NCBI GenBank assembly: GCA_021292105.1
Contig: CM037871.1
Coordinates: 58,240,866-58,304,865 of the forward strand
Reading direction: 5' to 3'
DNA length: 64,000 bases
Origin: Anadara kagoshimensis
Taxonomy: Eukaryota; Mollusca; Bivalvia; Arcoida; Arcidae
Shown: positions 4,550 to 63,200 of the stretch, one piece after another
Numbering within the stretch: position 1 is the stretch's first letter
How the letters are laid out: every line of letters begins with the position of its first letter
The notes under the pieces: model-generated
Databases searched by the model: none
What the model was told of the DNA's origin: nothing
What the model saw: only the letters and a program-made list of their open reading frames with translations
Made by a program: the position numbers and the translations under genes

Positions 4550-5340
4550 AAATATTGTTCGTGACAAAAGGGCATCACGAGTCAGAGCAACAAGGAACTT
4601 ATCATAAAGAACCTATACATCGAAAACCAAACATGCCACCATGGCCAAACCACAATCCCAAAGCAAAGTAAAACCTATATATAGCATATAAGATTAAACA
4701 CGTGAACTTCCACCAGGGCAACGAGACAGGTGCCCCAGAGGGTAAGCACCTACTAGCTACATCGTCACGTGTTTAATCAAAACTGGAATGAAAGGAACAT
4801 AGAACTATGGGACGCCAAATATATCCAGGGTAATTATGGATACAGATATCATACTTATCAAAAAATTGTGATTAGTCCATAAAACATTTTGAGGGTCATG
4901 ATAAGCCTAGGTTTGCAATATCCTTGCGTCCACAATTTATAAGCAGCTTGCTTCGGTGTATAAAGTTCCCAAATTGTGAAAGATATACCATACCCTACGA
5001 ATTGAGACACAAATATATAAGCAGGAGAAGAAGGTATATTGTTATAGAAGAGGAAAGTTTACAATCGAATAATTAAAGTCATCGCGTTTATCATACAACT
5101 TCAAATGTAGCCTTTCGTTGGCATCATAATTGAGATATGTCTAAATATGAAGAAGTTTGAGAATCTTCTATTTCAAGCTCACTGAGATAGATGGCATCCA
5201 CACAATCAGCAAAGTCGGATTATTAATAGATAAAACGTCATTTATATATCAGTATGTGGAGTTGAACGATTTAATCTTGTCTCCAGATTTACCAAGGTTC
5301 TGCATAATGCAGTAAGATAACAACCATTGCCACAAGAACA
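4550..5340 (-). mobile_element. Penelope-like retroelement, 3' part (copy 1)
   Basis: Read on the minus strand this copy holds the end of a reverse transcriptase domain (roughly 5340 to 4900), a 3' untranslated block with the family signature CTAGCTA...GGTGCTTACC, GTGGAAGTTCACGTG and CTTTGCTTTGGGATTGTG, and one unit of the family's 3' tail. The coding part is broken. The same 3' block recurs at 7285, 22585, 23600, 26820, 60735 and 62985. Assignment to Penelope-like elements is an inference from the GIPMGTN reverse transcriptase motif of the copies at 23030 and 46134. It is 5'-truncated. Confidence 0.75.
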
Positions 5341-20942: not shown

Positions 20943-21591
20943 AGACCCAAGTTTCACAATCAATTTTAACTTAGGCTTTCCTCGCTTTCATAACAGAATC
21001 TGACAAATTTTAAAATCTGAATATTTTTATCACAGGGGCCAGTTTCATAATAAAATTTAAAAAATACCCCTAAGTATATAAAAAAAGTAAAGGGGAACAA
21101 CGAATCAGATCTTTGATTTTTCGTAATGCGAATTTTAAGCTACTTTTACATGGACGGGCTTAGCTACATCGGGCAAAATTACATTTTTTCCGTGTTTTCC
21201 GTGTGAACATTTTATTAAAATTTTAAGTTATGTCCAAAAATTTAATGTCAATTTAAAGAATATTTATAACAAAATGACACCAAGATCACGATGATCGGAC
21301 ACAAATTAAAAAAGTAATGTAGAATTTTGTCGGAGCACCTACAAGTCAACAATCTGATTCGTTGTTCCCCTTTACTCTTTTTTATATACTTAGGGGTATT
21401 TTTTAAATTTTATTATGAAACTGGCCCCTGTGATTTTTATAGTTAGTTTTTACGGTTTTAAAGATATTGTCATTTTATATTTTATTTGTAATTTACATAT
21501 TCTAATTTTGTTAAAATCTGTTATTTGTATAACCATAAACTATTATCAAAATTTGTCAGATTTAAGTTAAGGAAAATCCTAGTTAAGAAAT
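20943..21591. mobile_element. TTCACAATCATTTCTTA MITE, split copy (left part)
   Basis: Begins CAAGTTTCACAATCA and should end in TTAAGAAATGATTGTGAAA, the inverted complement. Whole copies lie at 27407-27680 and 37364-37620. This copy is split twice: by a 402-bp element at 21031-21432, and at AAT 21589-21591 by the 5.2-kb palindromic element. Its last bases (GGTTGTGAACTTTA) resume at 26807. Confidence 0.8.
21031..21432. mobile_element. 402-bp hAT-like non-autonomous element
   Basis: Long inverted ends (about 75 bp, starting CACAGGGGCCAGTTTCATAA) are closed by CAGTTTC complements at the right. ATTTTTAT stands on both sides (21023-21030 and 21433-21440), a perfect 8-bp target duplication as in hAT elements. 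Interior non-coding. A half copy lies at 50403-50563. Confidence 0.88.
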
Positions 21592-22584
21592 TAGTCCCAG
21601 AGCTCATACAGGTTTATTTGACTTTTATTTGCCAAAAGGTCTGAAACTTGTCTCTGAAAGGCAATTATCAGTATAATATGAAAATGCATTTCTTACAAAA
21701 TTCGGTCTGGACATTTTTTGTAAATCCCGGATTTTTTAAGAGCACCTGAACGTATTTGTCAAAAACACTTTTTTGGGGTAGTGGAAGGGAATCGTGATTA
21801 TATAACGCCTAAATACGATAGATACCCATTAAATTTGGTATCGTTCTAAAGGTTATTGATAATTCTTTATTATATGATAAAATAGTTTTCAATATGATGT
21901 CACTAGGTACAGATATGATGTCATAAACTATTTTTTAAAATTAAAAATAATGAAAAAGGCTATTTCGATCGGATACAAATTTCTCAGGTTTACATTTGGT
22001 GTGTGTTGTCATTAATTTTTGTTTTATAATAATAATAAACCCTCAGCCATTGATATTCTATAACTTTAATGTGTAATTATCTGAGCATTATAATATCTTC
22101 TATCAGAGAAAATATGTACCCACTTCTACTGAAGAGTTCATTTTTGGGGGTAGGGGAACACTATCATGATTTAATATCATAACTATATATATTATCCCAT
22201 CATGTTTGGTATCAAATTGAAGGTATTTTAATAAAGTGTAATATTATGCATCAACATGAAACAAATTACCTTTCATTACGTCATCGTGATGTCATAATTT
22301 TAATTATTTGGTAAAATGCATTAAAATGTGATGAGATATATTTTTCTTATTGATGTCGTTCAACTGACAGAATATAAATATCATCTTTAATAACTACAAA
22401 AACAGTAATGAAAAACAGTTGAAAAACTACAATATTTAAAATATATTACAGACATATACTGCAAAACTCCAAGTTTAACAACAATGACAAGAAAAAGAAA
22501 CAAGAACATGTTTTAAATGTTGATCCAAATCTTAAATGTCAAATAATACAACTATTGCTACATCACGTTTTGGCTGTAAACAAA

Positions 22585-22935
22585 ATAAATAAATTGTTGA
22601 CTCAGGGATATTGCAAGCCTATGCTTATCAAGGCTCTATAAAAGTTTTATGGCCGTCATCACAGTATTGTTGATAAGTTTGATGTCTCTGTGTCCAGGAT
22701 TGCCCTGGCTATATTTGAAGTCTCATAGTTCCATGTTCCTTTCACACAATTTTGATTGCACGCGTGACGGGTGTAGCTAGCTAAACAGGAGGTGCTTACC
22801 ATTCCGGAGCACCCGGCCTCACTTCCCTGGTGGAAGTTCACGTGTTTAACCGGACTTGTCAGTTCCAAAAATTTTACTTTGCTTCTTGATTATGATTCGG
22901 ACATGGATTAGTATGTCTGGTTTTTTTTTTTTTAT
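22585..22935 (+). mobile_element. Penelope-like 3' end (copy 3), inserted in the palindrome's left arm
   Basis: Begins inside the last codons of the reverse transcriptase (the AAATTGTTGACTCAGGGATA segment and ATTGCAAGCC), then the 3' block (GTGTAGCTAGCTAAACAGGA, GGTGGAAGTTCACGTG), one tail unit and a T run. It stands head-to-tail, immediately upstream of the longer copy at 23000-23945. Partial tandem arrangement of this kind is known for Penelope-like elements. Confidence 0.75.
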
Positions 22936-22999
22936 TTACTATAAACCTTTTGTTATAGTATTACTTATTCAATTCTACGTATTTTCACTATTTTTCACT

Positions 23000-23945
23000 C
23001 CAAGTACATGTATCAGGGAAGAGGGAGTCTGGATATTGTGCCAAGCATTATACGGATTCCAAACAAAAATATACTGAAGATACCATCAACAAAATGTTGG
23101 AGTTTTTGATAGATAACAAATCTTTTGTGTTTGATTACATAATTTTCCAGCAAACAATCGGTATACCAATGGGTACAAACCAAACTGTAGACCATTGCTT
23201 GTTGATTTGCTTCTTTATTCGTATGAAACAGAATTTATGCAGAAATTTGTTAAATCTGGAGAGAAGACTGTCGCCAAATCATTCAACTCCACATACATAT
23301 TTATAGATGACGTCCTAACAATTCTAAATTTGGAGACTATGTGAATGTCATCTATCTTAGTGAGCTTGAAATAAAAAATACGACTGATTCCTCAAGTTCT
23401 GCTTCATATTTAGACTTTAACCTGAATATGACGCCCACGAAAGGCTACATTTTAAACTTTATGACAAACATGATGACTTCAATTTTTCTATTGTCAACTT
23501 TCCATGTCTATGCAGCAATATACCTGCTTGTATTATTTTTGCTAATTAATACGCTATGGTAGAGCCTGCTCCCACTACAAGAATTTTGTACAACAAATCA
23601 GGCTGCTTGCAAATAAATTGTTGACTCAGGGATATTGCAAACCTAGGCTTATCAAGGCCCTCAAAAAGTTTTATGGTCGTCATCAATGTATTGTTGATAA
23701 GTTGATGTCTTTGTGACCAGGATTGTTCTGGGTATATTTGACGTCCCATAGTTCCACGTTTCTTTCACACAATTTTGATTACACACGTGGCAGGTGTAGC
23801 TAGCTAAACAGAAGATGCTTTTCCTTATGGAGCACCCAGCCTCACTTCCCTGGTGGAAGTTAACGTGTCTAACTTTACTTGTTAGTTCCAAAGTTTTCAT
23901 TTTGCTTCTGGATTGTGATTCGGACACGGATTTGTTTTTGCTCAA
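23000..23945 (+). mobile_element. Penelope-like retroelement with reverse transcriptase remnant (copy 4)
   Basis: The coding remnant shows KMLEFLIDN-type sequence followed by FQQTIGIPMGTN, a YIDD-like FIDDVL site and, near the end, YGRHH-like residues, after which the protein stops and the 3' block follows (GTGTAGCTAGCTAAACAGAA, GGTGGAAGTTAACGTG, one tail unit). No endonuclease follows the reverse transcriptase, which would fit Penelope-like elements whose GIY-YIG domain is N-terminal (Naiad type), but the 5' part is missing here. The copy is broken in several places. Confidence 0.75.
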
Positions 23946-24059
23946 TAATTATTTTATACCCAATAAAATTGGAAAGCATTGTTTCAATGCCATCGTTTTT
24001 ATTAATCATCATCATTTTCATCATCTGACTCATCAGATCCGAATTAATCCCCGCCACTT

Positions 24060-24810
24060 CCTCAACTTTACCCTCTACTGACTGTGGAACACTGCTTTCC
24101 AATACACATATGATGTTTTGTGGCACCTGCGGTCCATCAAACAAATTAATTAATCAGGTTGAATTGTATACGGGTTTGGAATGAAAGTATTTTTCCAAAG
24201 AAATGTGATGTAGTTGACCGGCAATATTTTGTGTTGTAGAACTCTCTTGCATGATGGCATGATACTGGGATTGGCACCTTTTATTTTATTTAATGGTTCC
24301 TCTTTACTTTTTGATTCCTAATATTGTTGAAAGAGAAGAAACTCACACTGTTAACATTGGATATATAGGGTTTTTCATACGGAGTACAGACAAATTTCTC
24401 CAACCGATTCATTAAGTCCTCGGTAATGTTTCTACTGTTACAATAATGCATTTTTAAGTGATCACTATCGTTTGAGAGGTCTGGCTATCCCTTCATTAAT
24501 AAATGCTGAACTGAAGTAAAGTCCGAGCCAGTAAAAACGTAATCCAGGCAGTGCATCAATTTAAAAAGTTCTGGTTTGTGTGACAAACTTGATGTATATG
24601 ACGCTGTGTATTGCTGCTGCTAAGACCAACATCCATCCAACCTCCATGAAAACTTGGTGACCTCCAATAATCTTTGCATATGATGCATTTATACTCCAGA
24701 TGCGGTGCAGAAGACTCGACTATTGCTATCATTAGATCTGACAATAAACTGCGAAGAGATTGATAGCAAACTCTACGGTCTTCTTCTTTTAAAATAAAAT
24801 TTTTCAAATT
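24060..24810 (-). pseudogene. Left-arm gene remnant of the palindromic element
   Basis: The minus strand here matches the plus strand of 24831-25720: shared peptides include DVGLSSSNT (right arm DVSLSSSNT), the GSDFT motif and an acidic C-terminal MSQMMK-type tail. It lacks the segment encoding HEEVDTR that is present in the right arm, so about 200 bp are missing. The innermost part (24698-24830) is not duplicated and forms the loop of the palindrome. The frame is broken. It is plausibly the former transposition-related gene of the element. Confidence 0.6.
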
Positions 24811-24830
24811 GTTTGCTAGAGAATAAAGTA

Positions 24831-25720
24831 ATGCATCATATGCAAAGATTATTAGAGGTGATCAAGTTTGCATGGGGTTGAAGAAACTGTCACTAATTTT
24901 ATGCAGTTGATGACGGTGTAGTACGTGAAGAGGTGTAAACATGAGGAAGTAGATACACGGATGGTGTTGCACTTGACGGAAATTGTTAAAAGTATATTTA
25001 ATGTAAGAATAGTCATCAGAGGTAATAATACAGATGCTTTGGTTACACTTGCACATCATGTTCAACGACTTATGGAAAAGCAACCTCATGTTTGGATCGA
25101 TGTTAGTCTTAGCAGTAGCAATACACGATGTCATATCAACATAAACATGTTTTTCACACAAACCAGACCTTTTTTATTGATGCATTTACTGGCTCAGACT
25201 TTACTCCAGCATTTGCCAATAAAAAGATAGCTAGACCTCTCAAAATGTGTGACTTCAAGAATTCTGTACTTTGGGTAACAGTAGAAACATTACTGAGGAC
25301 TTAATGAATCAGTTGGAGAAATTTGTCTGTGTTCTGTATAGAAAACCCTATATGTCCAATGGCAACAGTGTGAGGAACCATTAGATAAAATAAAAGGTGC
25401 CAACCCCAGTAGCATGCCACCATGCAAGAGAGTTCTACAACACAAAATATTGCAGGCCAACTACGTCACATTTCTTTGGAAAATACTTTTCTTCCAAACT
25501 CGTATACAATTCAACCTGATGGAAATGGATGGACTATCTTCGAAGGTAAATACCTAATCATTTAGTTTGATGGACCACAGGTACCAGGAAATATCATATG
25601 TGTATTGAAAAAGCCGTGATCTACAGTCAGTGGAGGGTAAAAATGAGGAAGTTGCATATGAAAAGGTTTTATTCGGACCTGATGAGTCAGATGATGAAAA
25701 TGATAGTTAATGACTAAGAC
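24831..25720 (+). pseudogene. Right-arm gene remnant with HEEVDTR and DAFTGSDFT motifs
   Basis: An open stretch encodes KHEEVDTRMVLHLTEIV and VIRGNNTDALVTLAHHV, and another frame just downstream encodes DAFTGSDFTPAFANKK. These motifs in this order (EEADTR, DTD, HALTGCD) are typical of a family of transposon-associated proteins very common in molluscan and other invertebrate genomes, whose biochemical role I do not know. The end of the remnant is acidic (PDESDDENDS). The gene is broken. Its position inside an inverted-repeat element suggests that the family is carried by this transposon group. Confidence 0.6.
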
Positions 25721-26806
25721 AAAAACATGACACTGAAACAATGATTTTCAATTTTATTATGTATAAATAATAAATAGTGAAACTACGTAGAATTGAGGAA
25801 GCAATATGGTAACAAAAGTCTTATAGTTTATAACCAAAACGTGATGTAGCAATAATTGTGATATTATGTATTTTAAACTTGGATTAATATATAATACTTG
25901 TTCTTGTTTCTTTTTCTGCTCATTGTTAAATTTAGAGTTTAGCAGCCTGTTTCCGTAATATAGTACAATCTTTAACTGTTTTTCATTATCGTTTGTTTGT
26001 ACATATTACAGATATTAATTATAATCTGTCAGTTGAATGACATAAATAAAAAAATATATCTCTTCATATTTTTATGTATTTTACCAAATAATTACGATTA
26101 TGACGTCACTATGACGCAATGAAAGGTAATTTGTTTTATGTTGATGCATAATATTACAGTTTATTAAAATACCTTTAATTTGATACCAAACATGATGGGA
26201 TAGTATATATAGTTATGATGTTAAATCATGATAGTGTTCCCCTACCCCCAAAAATGAACTCTTCAGTAGAAGTGGGTACATATTTTCTCTGATAGAAGAT
26301 ATTATAATGCTCAGATAATTACACATTAAAGTTATAGAATATCAATGGCTGAGGGTTTATTATTATTATAAAACAAAAATTAATGACAACACACACCAAA
26401 TGTAAACCTGAGAAATTTGTATCCGATCGAAATAGCCTTTTTCACTATTTTTAATTTTAAAAAATAGTTTATGACATCATATATGTACCTAGTGACATCA
26501 TATTGAAAACTATTTTATCATATAATAAAGAATTATCAATAACCTTTAGAACGATACCAAATTTAATGGGTATCTATCGTATTTAGGCGTTATATAATCA
26601 CGATTCCCTTCCCCTACCCCAAAAAAGTGTTTTTGACAAATACGTTCAGGTGCTCTTAAAAAATCCTGGATTTACAAAAAATGTCCAGACCGAATTTTGT
26701 AAGAAATGCATTTTCATATTATACTGATAATTGCCTTTCAGAAACAAGTTTCAGACCTTTTGGCAAATAAAAGTCAAATAAACCTGTATGAGCTCTGGGA
26801 CTAAAT

Positions 26807-27250
26807 GGTTGTGAACTTTACTTTACTTTGTACAACGAAGTAGGCTGCTTGCAAATAAATTGTTGACTCGGGAATATTGCAAGCCTAGGCTAATCAAGGC
26901 CCTCAAAAGTTTTATGGCCGTCATCACAGTATTGTTGATAAGTTTGATGTCTCTGTGTCCAGGATTGCCCTGGATATATTTGACGTCTCATAGTTTCATG
27001 TTCCTTTCACACAATTCTGATTACACACGTGGCGGGTGTAGCTAGCTAAACAGGAGGTGCTTCGTGACTTTTCTGGAGCACCCGGTCTCACTTCCCTGGT
27101 GGAAGTTCACGTGTCTAACCTAATTTGTCAGTTCCAAAGTTTTTACTTTGCTTCTGGATTGTGATTCGGACATGGATTAGTATGTTTGTTTTTACTTTGC
27201 TTCTGGATTGTGATTCGGACATGGATTAGTATGTTTGTTTTTGATTACTA
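26807..27250 (+). mobile_element. End of split MITE followed by Penelope-like 3' end (copy 5)
   Basis: 26807-26818 is the last piece of the TTCACAATC-type MITE. From about 26822 a Penelope-like 3' end follows: GGCTGCTTGCAAATAAATTG, GTGTAGCTAGCTAAACAGGA, GGTGGAAGTTCACGTG. The tail shows two head-to-tail copies of a unit containing CTTTGCTTCTGGATTGTGAT and CGGACATGGATTAGTATG, direct evidence that the family's 3' end is itself tandemly repeated. Confidence 0.78.
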
Positions 27251-62984: not shown

Positions 62985-63200
62985 TAATCAAAAACAAACA
63001 TACTAATCCATGTCTGAATCACAATCCAGAAGCAAAGTAAAAACTTTGGAACTGACAAGTTAGGTAAGACACATGAACTTCCACCAGGGAAGTGAGGCCG
63101 GGTGCTCCGGAAGGGTAAGCACCTCCTGTTTAGCTAGCTACACCCGCCACGTGTGTAATCAAAATTGTGTGAAAGGAACATGGAATTAAATGGCACAATT
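62985..63200 (-). mobile_element. Penelope-like 3' end (copy 8)
   Basis: Minus-strand 3' block: the plus sequence shows GAATCACAATCCAGAAGCAA, CATGAACTTCCACCAGGGAA, GGTAAGCACCTCCTGTTTAG and CTAGCTACACCCGCCACG. One tail unit is at 62990-63035. Close to the copies at 22.6 and 26.8 kb, so relatively young. Confidence 0.78.

Follow-up and report, generated by a model that had tools for sequence, protein, structure and literature searches.

We analyzed a 64,000-nucleotide stretch of the genome of the bivalve Anadara kagoshimensis (assembly GCA_021292105.1, contig CM037871.1, positions 58,240,866 to 58,304,865 of the forward strand), referred to below as the window. The window contains a near-palindrome of 5.2 kb at positions 21592-26803, which has exact inverted ends, is bordered by a duplicated AAT and carries in both arms the remnants of a gene for a protein with EEADTR- and TGCD-type motifs. 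To our knowledge, proteins of this type are common in invertebrate genomes, yet they usually go unnamed. The features of the element are given below in window coordinates with the strand in brackets. Gene remnants are numbered in amino acids (aa) of a 1,549-aa relative encoded elsewhere in the genome, and the 20 oriented copies are the window element and 19 others compared with it.

21589..21591 (no strand): left 3-bp target-site duplication, AAT
21592..22581 (+): left terminal inverted repeat; identity to the right repeat 97% over the outer ~755 nt
21775..21786 (+): subterminal motif GGGGTAGTGGAA, one mismatch to GGGGTAGGGGAA; candidate transposase binding site
22147..22158 (+): second subterminal motif, GGGGTAGGGGAA, 372 bp further in; candidate binding site
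22587..22926 (+): secondary insert of a dispersed repeat, ~340 bp; among the 20 oriented copies found elsewhere in L036 only
22926..22993 (+): left terminal repeat, inner continuation; inverted match to 25772-25839
~22994..23952 (+): retroelement-like fragment within the left arm
23953..24690 (-): left remnant of the gene 3' end; protein-detectable part ~aa 1425-1522 of the 1,549-aa relative
24691..24829 (no strand): centre of the near-palindrome, between a pair of inverted blocks
24870..25720 (+): right remnant of the gene 3' end, ~aa 1250-1515, with EEVDTR and NNTD motifs and segments in different frames
25826..26803 (-): right terminal inverted repeat
26237..26248 (-): right-arm inner subterminal motif; candidate binding site
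26609..26620 (-): right-arm outer subterminal motif; candidate binding site
26804..26806 (no strand): right 3-bp target-site duplication, AAT

The arms at 21591-22345 and 26050-26804 were 97% complementary over 755 nt. Further inward, the symmetry continued as shorter ungapped inverted blocks of 79-93% that reached ~24690/24830, and the inner gene part of the two arms was 72.7% identical in a gapped alignment. An earlier sequence-only reading, which had described a near-palindrome with nearly identical outer 700 bp and inverted but more diverged inner parts, was thus borne out, and the AAT that it had taken for a target duplication does lie directly outside both ends. The ends are exact inverted copies, as it had claimed; their length, given there as 20 bp, is about 60 bases when read directly from the sequence. 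The terminal repeat measures ~990 bp at 92% in the window copy, and ~1,005-1,050 bp at 88-93% in other copies of the family that have two full repeats. The same reading had placed a broken EEADTR-type gene in each arm, directed outward. The remnants are indeed broken and face outward, with matching segments in different frames; each arm proved to hold only the 3' end of the gene and not the whole of it. For the left arm, more of the gene is protein-detectable in other copies than in the window.

The window's own genome (1.115 Gb in 36 contigs) was searched for further copies. A 754-base arm query gave at least 41 matches (40 of 200 candidates scored), and the 21-base terminus, with up to two mismatches allowed, gave 185 matches compared to none for the reversed control, so the near-palindrome is not a product of chance. 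We fetched 20 further copies, of which 19 were oriented and compared together with the window copy, L043 being left out. Both terminal repeats were full or nearly full in 18 of the 20 fetched copies, counting L044, from which the outermost 31 bases on the left are missing; L047 kept its second arm only in part. Copy lengths were 4.5-5.2 kb, except for one copy of 6.3 kb, L047 (4.2 kb) and L043, a 912-bp short derivative at C4:5661978-5662889 that shares the ends of the family and is flanked by an exactly duplicated ACG. Twenty copies, including the window element and excluding L044, had both ends readable. Exact 3-bp duplications were present in 19 of them and a 4-bp match in none, while left and right flanks paired across different copies matched at 3 bp in 24 of 380 cases (6%). 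The window element hence belongs to a family of repeats whose members have long inverted ends and are flanked by 3-bp duplications; such duplications at independent insertions, which the sequence-only reading had proposed as a check, were also found in the relatives described below (CTA, TAA and TCT).

The fragment at ~22994-23952, which we take to be retroelement- or reverse-transcriptase-like, gave no match in a Pfam search. Each of the 20 oriented copies has it in the left arm, L041 and L049 with internal gaps, and it was therefore probably acquired before the family amplified. A dispersed repeat of ~330 bp, 75-91% alike between its copies, occurs in the window at 4623-4940, 22587-22912, 23611-23935, 26853-27193 and 62990-63188; two of these copies lie within the left arm and one directly to the right of the element. 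Just to its left, a stretch of ~440 bp (21011-21452) contains inverted repeats nested in one another, one of 75 nt at 91% and one of 40 nt at 90%, which are possibly a small separate inverted-repeat element.

A longer relative was found at C18:22455029-22461887. It is 6,859 bp long, has terminal repeats 95% alike over 734 bp and is flanked on both sides by CTA. The part that was read (L055) holds aa 596-1535 of the gene, with breaks, between the ends; a gene between the same arms, which the sequence-only reading had suggested looking for, thus exists in this genome, albeit in broken form. The right part of the C18 relative was 80% identical to the window right arm over 2,208 aligned bases, and its terminal repeat was 82.5% identical to the left terminal repeat of the window element. 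The left gene remnant of the window matched this same C18 end in inverted orientation (77.7%). Both window arms thus match one and the same end of this relative. That the window copy is derived by a head-to-head arrangement, as had been supposed, is supported. Elsewhere, window-type ends were seen 9.3 kb apart at C8:44030293-44039593, farther than in any copy read; the pair may mark a longer relative or reflect an insertion nested within a copy. Divergent gene matches were also listed at C8:43335337 (58%) and C6:35205582 (64%).

With the C18 gene piece as query, the other 146 of the 147 matches scored (from 403 candidates) were 52-54% identical, and those that were read (L051, L052) belonged to a second family. 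Two copies of the second family lie at C1:4790396-4797449 (7,054 bp) and C2:63056414-63063469 (7,056 bp; loci L051-L054). The two copies read have inverted repeats of 912-913 bp at 98%, one duplication each (TAA and TCT), and are 99.94% identical over 6,753 bp. Within the 10 kb of locus L051 there is a single open reading frame (ORF) of at least 150 aa, the intact gene for the 1,549-aa protein. Of the 147 matches listed for the C18 gene piece, 34 fall in an open frame of 1,549 aa, and the second-family terminus had 417 matches in the genome (control, 0). The second family is apparently young, and it keeps an intact whole gene between ends similar to those of the window family: in the termini of the two families, TAGTCCCAGAGCT and TAGCCCAAGAGCT, 11 of the first 13 bases agree.

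The two families also share the motif GGGGTAGGGGAA, which occurs twice per terminal repeat in both, at a spacing of 372 bp in the window and 356 bp in L051; one of the four sites in the window has one mismatch. Letter-shuffled L051 elements contained on average 0.005 occurrences at up to one mismatch. In the right repeat of the C18 relative, two such sites are 371 bp apart. These sites are candidate binding sites for a transposase. Because the C18 relative and the second family both show gene, arms and duplication together, the link between the EEADTR gene and the arms is real, and the assignment of this gene to a group of transposons that have long terminal inverted repeats and generate 3-bp duplications, made originally from the window alone, is supported.

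We then considered what the 1,549-aa protein might do. Its middle matched DUF6589 (PF20231) with an E value of 3e-4 for the whole protein and 2e-5 for the piece, below the Pfam cut-off. The C-terminal part carries the acidic motifs VVDA, VCDT, HEEAD, NDTD and TGCD in this order, which we take to be the order of FEN/XPG nucleases. No helicase was matched by Pfam in the 1,549-aa protein, and searches of gene pieces against Pfam, PHROGs and PDB sequences gave no named function beyond the sub-threshold DUF6589; weak matches such as SLATT_5 (E 0.008) and protocadherin (E 0.12) were taken as chance. Searches of viral contigs and prokaryote genomes, with a few short peptide patterns each, found no relatives. 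Proteins with DUF6589, for which the library states no function, are like the 1,549-aa protein in its middle and differ in that the match of the latter stays below the threshold. One DUF6589-positive ORF of 1,438 aa was seen at C5:4786215-4787252 (L140 = C5:4787800-4788899), above the Pfam cut-off. Downstream of DUF6589 this frame has clear VIDG, IFDN, SPDND and TGCD motifs and only EGD as a counterpart of EEAD; its BLASTP match to the 1,549-aa protein had an E value of 0.004 in a two-sequence comparison. This suggests that DUF6589 proteins and EEADTR proteins form one broad transposon group.

Taken together, we regard it as likely that the window element is a non-autonomous Academ-type DNA transposon, AcademX-like, that arose and spread as follows. 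The single large protein of the gene would be the transposase, with a putative DDE-type core in the middle and a FEN/XPG-like nuclease at the C-terminus. It would bind the terminal and subterminal motifs, excise the element and insert it into targets cut with a 3-bp stagger. Interrupted repair of an excision gap may then have placed an inverted copy of the gene 3' end next to the terminal repeat on the other side, giving the palindrome; such repair is one of the routes discussed for defective copies of the Drosophila transposon Galileo (PMC4168063). Defective copies of this kind would afterwards have been mobilised in trans by a longer relative.

Several observations weigh against this reading or parts of it. 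L034, with flanks ATT/TTT, is the one copy of the 20 without an exact duplication. Beyond the termini and the GGGGTAGGGGAA sites, the terminal repeats of the two families could not be aligned, the orientation of the GGGGTAGGGGAA sites with respect to the end is opposite in the two, and one of the two sites in the C18 relative has two mismatches. That relative, the sole longer one read, is broken, and its gene was read from aa 596 onward; an intact element with window-type terminal repeats was not found among the matches listed, of which the 9.3-kb pair of ends and the two divergent gene matches on C8 and C6 were not read. As for the protein, its middle matches nothing but the sub-threshold DUF6589, and no set of catalytic DDE residues was made out in it. 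No nuclease came up when pieces of the gene were searched against Pfam and PDB sequences, and a profile comparison with FEN nucleases of the phage T5/PolA type was weak and out of register (E 0.051; middle-region control in the same comparison, E 0.18). When a third protein, that of the 1,438-aa frame, was added to the profile, EEAD and NDTD came into register, again weakly (E 0.014, probability 3%). Since the profile match is weak and in register only with the third sequence, a FEN/XPG-like nuclease at the C-terminus, as read from the motifs, is plausible but unproved.

The nuclease of AcademX transposons is of the XPG type. The lineage reportedly goes back to Kojima in 2020. According to PMC10045372, AcademX elements have 3-4-bp duplications and a nuclease, and AcademH elements have 9-10-bp duplications and a helicase; PMC5199201 gives 3 bp for Academ, and PMC3627910 names a RecQ helicase as the extra protein of Academ. 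Since the 1,549-aa protein gave no helicase match, the helicase lineage AcademH is not indicated. The Academ label fits by published traits and not by comparison with Academ proteins.

The alternative that fares best keeps the anatomy and the mechanism and changes only the name: EEADTR elements would be a separate, undescribed superfamily of DNA transposons, defined by a single protein with a DDE-type core and a FEN-like 5'-nuclease, a conserved end TAGYCCMAGAGCT and GGGGTAGGGGAA sites that occur in pairs inside the element. This genome would hold an amplified and intact family of them, and recruitment of the gene 3' end into both arms would be possible as in Galileo. It is consistent with several facts: no library family names the protein, for which Pfam offers only the sub-threshold DUF6589; in the literature searched, DUF6589 went unmentioned and "Academ" and "XPG" never occurred together as whole words; the RecQ helicase reported for Academ in PMC3627910 has no match in the 1,549-aa protein; and the placement in Academ was set by traits, not by Academ sequences. 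Opposed to it are the 3-bp duplications and the nuclease-like C-terminus, which match the published description of AcademX and are unlike AcademH, as well as the abundance of Academ in bivalves, for which PMC10294476 reports a bivalve-specific amplification and 100 curated full-length Academ sequences with a mean length of 5,565 bp. We consider a separate superfamily unlikely. The element is most likely of an already known kind, and the evidence does not support the suggestion in the sequence-only reading that its type is undescribed: 3-bp duplications and a nuclease-like part agree with the published traits of AcademX.

The origin of the palindrome was addressed by comparing the arms among the copies. 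Measured against the 1,549-aa relative, the arms across copies comprise ~aa 1165-1545 in one arm and ~aa 1292-1535 in the other. Gene segments from upstream of the 3' end were represented in the arms only by two chance-level matches in L038 (E 3.4 and 3.8). Because the arms align only to the end of the gene, each arm consists of the gene 3' end, which encodes the final quarter of the 1,549-aa protein, and then the terminal repeat. A tree built with the 40 arms of the 20 copies grouped the left arms in a single clade with a support of 1.0. Mean identity, gaps not counted, was 96.9% among left arms and 97.5% among right arms, and 81.8% when left arms were compared with right ones. Left-right differences were spread evenly over the codon positions, at 20/115, 19/116 and 22/115 columns (17.4, 16.4 and 19.1%; chi-square p 0.86), in a small sample of 346 phased columns with the phase assigned from the right arms only. 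This per-column count replaced an earlier one on single copies (39.8, 39.4 and 42.9%; 2,257 codons, 20 copies), which was noisy from misaligned codons. The arm tree and the flat codon-position differences together show for these 20 copies that the palindrome formed only once; its arms then diverged as non-coding DNA, and the element multiplied afterwards. The inner parts have become less alike than the outer terminal repeats, a pattern suggestive of selection or gene conversion at the ends.

These data also bear on the possibility that the palindrome is a head-to-head recombinant of two already diverged autonomous elements rather than an inverted duplication of one end. The ~18% difference between the arms in the gene part counts in its favour; two coding lineages should however show an excess of third-position differences, and the divergence is flat, which makes this origin quite improbable. 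It is very unlikely that the terminal repeats belong to an unrelated transposon which picked up the gene fragment as passive cargo. All 20 window-family copies compared do hold only the end of the gene, in broken form, as cargo might; yet the C18 relative with the same ends has the gene between them, and so does the second family, whose terminal repeats are largely different although the terminus is similar, and where in L051 it is the only ORF of at least 150 aa. Palindromes can arise in assemblies as a matter of general knowledge, but an assembly artefact or a chance local inversion is refuted by the inverted gene structure in 19 of the 20 fetched copies (all but L043), in different flanks, and by the fact that, among the 19 fetched copies in which both ends could be read, 18 carry an exact duplication of their own.

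The EEADTR/TGCD protein type is now tied to defined transposon ends and 3-bp duplications, and the apparently young second family offers a place where transposase and nuclease functions could be tested.

Among known systems, the element resembles Academ, and AcademX in particular, in its 3-bp duplications, its terminal inverted repeats, the large protein with a putative nuclease-like part and the abundance of Academ in bivalves. It differs in the structure of the window copy, a near-palindrome that is non-autonomous and whose arms each hold no more than the gene 3' end. Two other superfamilies were considered and rejected. PIF/Harbinger elements make 3-bp TWA duplications, and those of the window family include TCT, CAA, CTG, TGT, AAG and ACG, so they are not TWA. 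CACTA/EnSpm elements have CACTA/CACTG ends and 2-3-bp duplications, and the ends here, TAGTCCCAGAGCT and TAGCCCAAGAGCT, are not of this type.

In its form, the element resembles Galileo. PMC4168063 places this Drosophila element in the P superfamily by its transposase, with 7-8-bp duplications and long inverted repeats; it describes the recruitment of the last piece of the transposase gene into the terminal repeats, together with secondary insertions, and in 2014 called this recruitment so far unique to Galileo. The A. kagoshimensis element differs from Galileo by its 3-bp duplications and by having no P-type transposase match in Pfam. It shares with it the long inverted repeats, the secondary insertions in the terminal repeat and the gene 3' end present, inverted, in both arms. 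Both arms carry this gene end and both match the same end of the C18 relative, a Galileo-like foldback in form and not in family. The palindromic derivative thus suggests that the recruitment of gene ends into terminal repeats, described in 2014 as unique to that element, also occurs outside Galileo, in a different transposon group.

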